Shown piece by piece: positions 36,336 through 38,649 of a stretch of DNA of 45,579 nucleotides (positions are counted from its first letter, which is position 1; each line of letters starts with the position of its first letter). The stretch spans positions 1 to 45,579 of the forward strand of contig SHLP01000015.1 of assembly GCA_004283055.1 (NCBI GenBank), read 5' to 3'. The notes beneath the pieces are model-generated. The model had not been told where the DNA came from, ran no database searches, and was given only the letters and a program-made list of their open reading frames with translations. The DNA is from Deltaproteobacteria bacterium (GTDB lineage: Bacteria; Myxococcota_A; Polyangia; Polyangiales; Houyiibacteriaceae). Position numbers and translations under genes: made by a program.

Positions 36336-36363
36336 CCGCCCTTCATCCAAAACGGAGCGTGAC

Positions 36364-36822
36364 ATGGCGAAAGCGGCGACCAAGAAAGCCACCAAGAAGC
36401 GGGCGACCAAAAAGTCGGCGCCCAAGAAGAGGACCGTGAAGAAGGCGGCCAAGAAGCGCGCGACCAAGAAGTCGACGCCGAAAAAGAAGACCGTGAAGAA
36501 GGCGGCCAAGAAGCGCGCGGCGCCGAAGAAAACGGTGAAGTCCGAAGCGGCCGCGCTACGGAAGAAGGCTAAAAAAACGAGCGCGCAGGCTAAGAAGAAG
36601 CTCGCCAAAGCAAAGAAAGAAGCCGAAAAAGAGACAGCGGCTCTGAAGCGCAAGGCCAAGAAGAAGAGAACGGAGCTCAAGCGACGGCTCAACAAGGCCA
36701 AGAAGTCGGCCAGCAAGGCGATCGCCGATCTCGAGAAGAAGGGCGAGAAGGCCGTCAAAGAGCTGAAGGCCAAGACGAGCAAGAAGAAACCAGCGAGGCG
36801 AAAACCAGCCGCGAAGAAGTAG
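36364..36822 (+). CDS. Histone H1-like Lys/Ala-rich DNA-binding protein
   Basis: 152 residues, almost only Lys, Ala, Thr, Arg, Ser, Pro and Glu, like the C-terminal tail of eukaryotic H1 and the H1-like proteins of several bacteria. The first 60 residues hold two 19-residue units ([19 protein letters not shown] and [19 protein letters not shown], residues 11-48) plus a partial third. The rest ([30 protein letters not shown]) is helical and highly charged. Such proteins bind DNA nonspecifically and compact it; it could also be an RNA-binding or cytosolic charge protein. ATG 36364 has its own promoter and ribosome-binding site and a terminator follows. Confidence 0.85.
36394..36507 (+). repeat. 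Two tandem 57-bp repeats inside the H1-like gene
   Basis: The 57-bp unit coding for a 19-residue Lys-rich block occurs twice (36394-36450, 36451-36507) with a few synonymous and Thr/Ala, Arg/Lys changes, followed by a partial copy. Such repeats expand and shrink by slippage. Confidence 0.8.
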
Positions 36823-37143: not shown

Positions 37144-38649
37144 ATGCGAGCGCTCGCTTTCTTGGTCATCTTGCTCGGCGCCTGCAGCGGGTACGACGAC
37201 CTCGCGCTGCTCGATGTGGAGAGCATCGAGCCCCCCGAGATCGAGACCGGTGGGACCCTGCGAATCCACGGTCACGGCTTCCCGCTCGGGCGAATTCCCG
37301 AGATCCGGCTGCGCGGCTCGATCTATCGACCCGGGGTGCGCGCGAGTCGCATCGATGCCCGCCTTGCCGGCGAGGTCCGCTCCGAGTCGCTCATCGAGAT
37401 CCCTGTCGTAGAAGAGCTCATCGACGCCCTCGGCGGCCGGGCCACCGTCGATGGGGAGCTGCGGGTCGGGTTTCGTGCAGCGGACGGGCGTCGAGACGTC
37501 TTCTCCGCCGAGCGGGTGCGGGTCGACTTCCTCCCCGACACGTCGTCACAGCTGCGCGCCGATGCGATCCGTGAGGAGCAGCCCTCAGCGCTACATGTCT
37601 CACAGAGCTTCGGCCTCGAGCTCTCGCCCGAAGAGCTCGGAACGGTGGGCGTCGAGGTCGTCTCAGTGGACCCCGACGGGATCGCGGCGCACCAGGGCGT
37701 AAAGCCGGGCGACCGGATCGTAGGGGTCGACGGAATGAGCCTTTATAGCCGGCGCGACTTCCTTCCCGACCCGAGCCGGACGGAGTCTACGGTGCTGGTC
37801 GCCCGGGACGGGCTTCGCGGCGTTCATGCGCTCCGATGGCCGCACGAGGCGACGCAGCCCTCCGCGGAGCCGGTTGCGATCGGTCTCTTCGTGCTGCTCG
37901 GGCTCTTGCTCGGCTGGCTCTCCCCTGCGACGCTTTGCCTACGCACCGGCCGTTCCGAGGGCTCGCTCTCTACATGGCTCACCCGCGCGACCCTGGTTGC
38001 GATCTTTGCGGCGCTCCTCGTCTTCGTGCCGGCTCTTCAATGGACGACGATGTGGATCTTGGGATTGGGCACGTTCGCTGCGCTCTTCACCTTGGCCGGC
38101 AGGGATCGAGCCGGAGCGTCGAGCTTTTCCTTCGCCGTGATTGCGACGCTCACCGTGATGCTGCTCGCGCGGACCGCCAGCCTGTCGCTCATCATCTCCG
38201 CACAGCATCCATCGGTCCTGCGCTGGTATCTGTTCCAGTCTCCGGCTTCGTTCTTCGCCTGTGCCGCGTATCTCTACGCGCTGCGTGCGGTCGGCGTGCG
38301 GGCCAGCGCCTCCGCATCGCTCTACTCAGCGGCCGCTGCGACCTTCGGCGCGGCCCTGTTTCTCGGTGGGTGGCCCTTGGCGGGCTCCATCGCGGGGATC
38401 GCCGCCTTCGCCGTAAAAGCCGCCCTGCTGATGGCCGCTGCCGGCGCCTTCGGAATGGGCCCCAAAGCCGCCGCGGTATGCTCGTTACTCGGGGCCGGGC
38501 TCGCCCTCCTCGGGTTGGTCATCGACCTGGCCTCGCTCTTTCCCCAGTGGAGCGCGCTGTCGGTGGGCGCTGTGTGCGCACTTGCCATCCGCGCCATCGT
38601 GCCGCCGCTTCGGCGAGAAGCGGCGCCGGTCATGGCCGCGTCGTCCTAG
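37144..38649 (+). CDS. Lipoprotein with IPT/TIG-like and PDZ domains fused to a NuoH-like membrane region
   Basis: 501 residues, ATG 37144 with a GGAAAGG site. Lipobox LLGACS (Cys14). Residues about 26-130: IPT/TIG-like Ig fold (VESIEPPEIETGGTLRIHGHGF). About 150-232: PDZ (VVSVDPDGIAAHQGVKPGDRIVGVDG). About 245-495: seven or eight TM helices. This last part resembles complex I subunit NuoH: the stretch WYLFQSPASFFACAAYLYALRAVG lies where NuoH has a WxxFxQPLxFxxFxxAxxAExNR helix, and AALFLGGWP with an AFAVKAALLMAAAGAFG helix matches the NuoH LFLGGW and xxLLKxxLL region. The quinone-site Glu/Arg residues of NuoH are absent, so this is at best a non-catalytic relative. The location would be membrane-bound with N-terminal domains outside. 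Confidence 0.85.
   Translation: MRALAFLVILLGACSGYDDLALLDVESIEPPEIETGGTLRIHGHGFPLGRIPEIRLRGSIYRPGVRASRIDARLAGEVRSESLIEIPVVEELIDALGGRATVDGELRVGFRAADGRRDVFSAERVRVDFLPDTSSQLRADAIREEQPSALHVSQSFGLELSPEELGTVGVEVVSVDPDGIAAHQGVKPGDRIVGVDGMSLYSRRDFLPDPSRTESTVLVARDGLRGVHALRWPHEATQPSAEPVAIGLFVLLGLLLGWLSPATLCLRTGRSEGSLSTWLTRATLVAIFAALLVFVPALQWTTMWILGLGTFAALFTLAGRDRAGASSFSFAVIATLTVMLLARTASLSLIISAQHPSVLRWYLFQSPASFFACAAYLYALRAVGVRASASASLYSAAAATFGAALFLGGWPLAGSIAGIAAFAVKAALLMAAAGAFGMGPKAAAVCSLLGAGLALLGLVIDLASLFPQWSALSVGAVCALAIRAIVPPLRREAAPVMAASS

Follow-up and report, generated by a model that had tools for sequence, protein, structure and literature searches.

The gene under study is located in the window, i.e., the entire stretch of 45,579 nucleotides analyzed here, and encodes a protein of composite architecture. 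The following features were assigned to the gene and its product:

37144 to 38649, forward strand: whole gene, an open reading frame of 501 amino acids comprising a lipoprotein signal, an IPT-like domain, a PDZ domain, and a NuoH-derived membrane domain
37144 to 37185, forward strand: lipoprotein signal peptide containing the lipobox LGAC, whose Cys14 is invariant across the 41 aligned members of the family
37213 to 37536, forward strand: Ig/IPT-like beta-sandwich, residues 24–131, from fold prediction; shares homology with the N-terminal part of intact IPT-PDZ-NuoH proteins
37585 to 37842, forward strand: PDZ domain, residues 148–233, from Pfam; Gly157 and Asp190 invariant in a 42-row alignment
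37849 to 38646, forward strand: NuoH-derived membrane domain, residues 236–501, with eight NuoH helices and a ninth, C-terminal helix
38107 to 38109, forward strand: Arg322, aligned with the arginine of NuoH LRaaaQ and kept in 59% of the degenerate members
38203 to 38244, forward strand: retained periplasmic loop of NuoH, residues 354–367 (Q354, W361, P367), from alignment
38296 to 38310, forward strand: residues 385–389, left over from the otherwise deleted quinone-site loop that connects helices 5 and 6 in NuoH, from alignment
38359 to 38373, forward strand: retained FLGGW motif, residues 406–410, from alignment
38416 to 38418, forward strand: Lys425, the retained lysine of NuoH helix 7, from alignment

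A divergently oriented tRNA-Ala gene is located upstream, and a PilZ-domain gene converges on the 3' end; rplU and the genes for a 5'-nucleotidase, a lysine-rich protein, and ribF lie farther away. The open reading frame beside the gene at positions 36361 to 36819 (forward strand) encodes a histone H1-like lysine/alanine-rich protein that obtained no Pfam match. The original prediction had recommended inspecting the surroundings for nuo genes, and none were detected nearby. Likewise, in the neighbourhoods examined within the window's order, the gene was never found beside nuo genes and is an orphan throughout. Clustering of the open reading frames of 40 neighbourhoods revealed no neighbour conserved family-wide, and no operon partner or pathway was indicated. 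Of 58 genomes from the window's own relatives, 49 carry the gene, and it is distributed over most of the order as well as parts of the class; a contig search with the single protein matched only metagenome-assembled genomes (MAGs) of uncultured Myxococcales/Deltaproteobacteria and similar organisms.

For the N-terminal half, a lipobox, an IPT-like fold, and a PDZ domain had been proposed. The lipobox LGAC is real, its signal being MRALAFLVILLGAC, and the cysteine was identical in 41 of 41 aligned members. Residues ~24 to 130 were predicted by AlphaFold2 to form a well-ordered beta domain (pLDDT mostly about 90), but the IPT/TIG profile of Pfam did not recognise the window protein (E up to 10) or any of 42 family members (E up to 0.1), and a structure search with this domain retrieved only loose Ig-like matches. 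The label "IPT-like" therefore refers to the fold only. The PDZ domain scored above the Pfam cut-offs (PDZ_6, 31 bits vs. 27; PDZ, 26.3 vs. 23.2), and its structural matches were DegQ, DegP, and AlgW. The invariant Gly157 (motif FGLEL) is likely the residue of the carboxylate-binding loop. Both the structural matches and this glycine would suit an envelope quality-control adaptor, in which the PDZ domain takes the C-termini of exported proteins (DegS/RseP-type sensing) and the membrane domain passes them to a protease or translocase. Such a function is rather unlikely, since the protein has neither a protease domain nor a protease neighbour, and it would represent a special case of the receptor or adaptor role favoured below.

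The C-terminal membrane domain descends from the complex I subunit NuoH, as originally proposed and as supported by profile–profile comparison, fold search, graded intermediates, and phylogeny. The stretches quoted in favour of this origin, RWYLFQSPASFF (residues 360–371), AALFLGGWP (~403–411), and AFAVKAALLM (~421–430), follow the NuoH order and align with AQ..pW.W..f..P, FLGGW, and F..K of NuoH, respectively. Searched as a single sequence in Pfam (E up to 10), the window protein obtained no match to PF00146, whose gathering score was not reached, as would be expected if an unrelated membrane domain resembled NuoH by chance. However, the profile of the 41-member family matched NuoH with 100% probability (hhalign, E 2e-41, 305 columns), whereas reversed and column-shuffled decoy profiles achieved at most 0.2%; with intermediates scoring up to 627 bits and the results of the fold search, the probability of a chance likeness is negligible, and this candidate was rejected on the basis of the decoys. 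A profile of only five sequences from the genus reached NuoH with 93.6% probability, intact NuoH proteins of outgroups were matched by the family HMM down to E 1e-26, and PF00146 matched 20 of 42 family members. When only degenerate members were used for structure modelling, the resulting model (pTM 0.73) retrieved, at PDB ranks 1 to 46 (Foldseek), chains of complex I and relatives, almost all of NuoH/ND1 type, with modest TM-scores of ~0.4 and no membrane-domain E-value below 1e-3; a search of the viral fold library gave no meaningful match. The profile and structure checks named in the original prediction found the single sequence silent in Pfam, while the family profile and the degenerate-only model both reached NuoH. 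Within the membrane half of the 41 members, Q354, W361, P367, G408, G409, W410, and K425 are invariant or highly conserved, and they represent, in order, the NuoH motifs AQ..W..P, GGW, and K.

Detailed analysis of the alignment revealed which parts of NuoH were given up. The quinone-site block AE.NR.PFDLPEAESELV.GY..EYSG is mostly deleted, leaving the remnant A382-V-G-V-R386 in the window protein; the replacement by Leu-Arg-Ala-Val proposed earlier was correct in essence, but its register was off by a few residues. The position of the SYE glutamate after LRaaaQ is occupied by Phe328, and all of the quinone-site and docking motifs GPNR, KED, SYE glutamate, AE.NR.PFD, E.ESEL, EYSG, and LPR.R are absent from the window protein. 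Degenerate members as a group have lost GPNR, LAD..K, KED, SNSK, the SYE glutamate, the loop FD.PEAESELV.GY..EYSG, and RWTLPR.R.DQ. From its sequence context, the invariant SYE glutamate would correspond to Glu157 of E. coli NuoH, a residue located where the quinone cavity ends (PMC8357420). Loops of ND1 on the cytoplasmic side contact NuoB, NuoCD, and NuoI (PMC9696053).

Positions conserved to at least 90% in functional NuoH (25 periplasmic and 81 cytoplasmic) were compared with 39 degenerate members, the faces being labelled from the known complex I topology through a distant alignment (~12% identity). Mean retention amounted to 0.58 on the periplasmic side versus 0.14 on the cytoplasmic side (P 4e-9). 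Particularly high kept fractions, given in reference-segment numbering, were obtained for G217 (0.90), Q228 (0.95), P232 (0.95), W235 (0.85), P241 (0.97), G309 (1.0), G310 (0.85), and K338 (0.79). Judged from the alignment, the losses would concern the cytoplasmic face, where quinone and the peripheral arm are bound, and the residues kept would lie on the periplasmic face, adjacent to the PDZ domain. Counting charges for an N-out topology yielded nine K/R inside versus two outside; these charges fit an outside N-terminus, and the PDZ domain and the conserved loops therefore share the periplasm.

Since most members are without any quinone-site motif, the protein could also be regarded as a non-functional relic, a pseudogene decaying after the loss of a second complex I. 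However, long open frames persist across the order, Q354, P367, G408, and G409 are near-invariant in 41 distant members, and the dN/dS values of the membrane domain range between 0.11 and 0.19, close to those of the PDZ domain. The membrane domain is therefore not drifting, simple decay is ruled out, and the pseudogene reading, rejected by dN/dS, is very improbable.

The search for the same fusion elsewhere, also suggested originally, was successful: the same architecture on an intact NuoH was detected in seven genomes of the class (G153, G105, G084, G066, G147, G062, and G058), with nuo genes adjacent in each of them. These fusions from other lineages of the class match PF00146 at ~1e-110, have a complete quinone loop, and start with a signal or lipobox followed by the IPT-like and PDZ domains; the fullest cluster reads nuoC-nuoD-[IPT-PDZ-nuoH]-nuoI-nuoJ-nuoK-nuoL. 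Their N-terminal halves are homologous to that of the degenerate family (E 5e-15). In a phylum sample of 284 genomes, the IPT-PDZ-NuoH profile was covered over its NuoH part only among the matches listed outside the class. The PDZ fusion predates the degeneration of NuoH. This order of events was missing from the original prediction: the fusion came first, and degeneration is found in genomes without the second complex I.

Several related proteins were observed alongside. Four loci (L085, L087, L079, and L086) encode an intact NuoH with an IPT-like secreted extension but without a Pfam PDZ match; two of them (L085 and L087) come from outside the class, and such proteins occur at three places on the tree. 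In two intact IPT-PDZ-NuoH proteins (L078:1420-3600 and L084:1453-3501), an EF-hand-like insert, LDANGDGNI, is located inside or adjacent to the PDZ domain (EF-hand_5, E 0.046 only) and might represent a calcium-responsive element of complex I. Finally, an open reading frame following nuoL, in the place of nuoM (L179:10709-12748, forward strand), has an apparent signal peptide and a secreted extension at its start; periplasmic domains may therefore be present on more than one subunit of the second complex I.

Within the window's order, the orphans form a graded series. The NuoH part is intact in 16 orphan genomes, while quinone-site motifs were lost in 54 others, the window's genome included. 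NuoH-profile scores range from 568 to 627 bits for intact orphans, whose NuoH motifs are complete or nearly so, through roughly 90 to 380 bits for intermediates, to 19 bits for the window protein. In a tree of 45 NuoH domains, all 21 orphan rows form one clade (100/100), and the five degenerating orphans it includes nest among intact ones (98/93). The orphans that have degenerated furthest, among them that of the window, were too divergent for inclusion in this tree, and their placement therefore follows from shared architecture and profile continuity. The ordinary NuoH proteins of the order are located in a distant clade, and the tree thus gave no support to an origin of the domain from the genome's own ordinary NuoH. 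The ordinary NuoH of the window genome (G000:C149, L031:1099-2514, forward strand) contains an insert of ~85 amino acids with hydrophobic stretches, which falls inside the conserved GP[NS]R...LADxxK quinone-loop region.

The state of the orphan coincides with the presence of a second complex I. A second-type NuoD elsewhere in the genome was found in 14 of 16 intact-orphan genomes versus none of 54 degenerate ones (Fisher 6e-13, ignoring phylogeny), and a second-type NuoI in 15 of 16 versus none of 30 (Fisher 3e-11, ignoring phylogeny); all 16 intact-orphan genomes hold one or both. Identity to the cluster type is 62–70% for the second NuoD and 45–53% for the second NuoI. Both states occur within genus g42, where G174 has an intact orphan and both partners, and G507 a degenerate one and neither. 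In G214 and G233, NuoI is present and NuoD absent, and such absences of either gene may be assembly gaps, because many of the genomes searched are fragmented MAGs. Cross-matching between several NuoL types made NuoL uninformative as a third marker. In the single-contig genomes G509 and G510, the genes D, H, I, and L of the second complex I are scattered over ~2 Mb without an operon (G510: H at 12.33, L at 12.39, I at 12.96, and D at 14.43 Mb). According to the simplest reading, loss of the second complex I freed this NuoH from quinone work.

An ordinary NuoD is kept in nearly all genomes searched, and the window genome retains an ordinary nuoGHI cluster. The protein might thus still be tied to complex I as an assembly factor, a dummy H subunit, or a regulator touching the ordinary complex from the periplasmic side, which is the very side of NuoH retained. 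This is nevertheless unlikely: the loops through which the cytoplasmic side touches NuoB, NuoCD, and NuoI in complex I (PMC9696053) are lost or degenerate, and the gene stands apart from nuo genes in the neighbourhoods examined within the order.

Taken together, the protein is probably an exapted NuoH remnant that now provides the stand-alone inner-membrane platform for a PDZ receptor or adaptor in the periplasm; its PDZ domain and the retained periplasmic face are consistent with such a present role. The ancestor would have belonged to a second, non-standard complex I as its H subunit, with an N-terminus extended by a secreted lipoprotein/IPT/PDZ part. The N-terminus of NuoH starts in the periplasm, and this extension would therefore face the periplasm. 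In the Polyangiales, the genes of the second complex I would then have become scattered and the complex lost from most lineages, while the IPT-PDZ-NuoH gene stayed, losing the cytoplasmic face for quinone binding and arm docking and keeping the periplasmic one. The PDZ domain, helped by the IPT-like domain, may recognise an envelope protein by its C-terminus or a misfolded protein by its tail, and the NuoH-derived bundle may, through its conserved periplasmic loops, position the PDZ domain and perhaps couple it to a membrane partner. It is possible, though doubtful, that a PDZ receptor was built onto a proton-pumping core subunit so that complex I answered envelope signals, and that, after loss of the complex, this receptor persisted as a stand-alone sensor on a membrane platform derived from NuoH.

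Few membrane proteins are as conserved as the core subunits of complex I, and no report of a NuoH with a PDZ domain was found in the open-access library searched. Among relatives within one order, the quinone machinery disappears in graded steps, with conservation persisting on the opposite face. This pattern distinguishes the NuoH residues required for quinone chemistry and docking of the arm from residues that serve something on the periplasmic side, a less understood part of NuoH. The proteins represent a candidate new receptor family that annotation would call "PDZ domain-containing protein".

Compared to known systems, the window protein is homologous to NuoH/ND1/Nqo8 (PF00146) over most of the membrane domain and keeps the Q..W..P loop, FLGGW, and the lysine; however, it has lost the quinone cavity, the SYE glutamate, and the arm-docking loops, carries the N-terminal lipoprotein-IPT-PDZ part, and is encoded alone. 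With the IPT-PDZ-NuoH proteins of the second complex I in the class, it shares the domain order, the N-terminal secretion signal, and the ninth C-terminal helix, whereas these proteins have an intact NuoH beside nuo genes and, in some cases, the EF-hand-like insert near the PDZ domain. NuoH relatives of the HycD/MbsM type (formate hydrogenlyase and MBS) have the same membrane fold (PDB ranks 44 and 29), but are without PDZ and belong to redox complexes. Similar to PDZ proteins of the HtrA/DegS/RseP type, the window protein presents a periplasmic PDZ domain anchored in the inner membrane; unlike them, it is devoid of a protease domain and uses a NuoH-derived helix bundle as its anchor.
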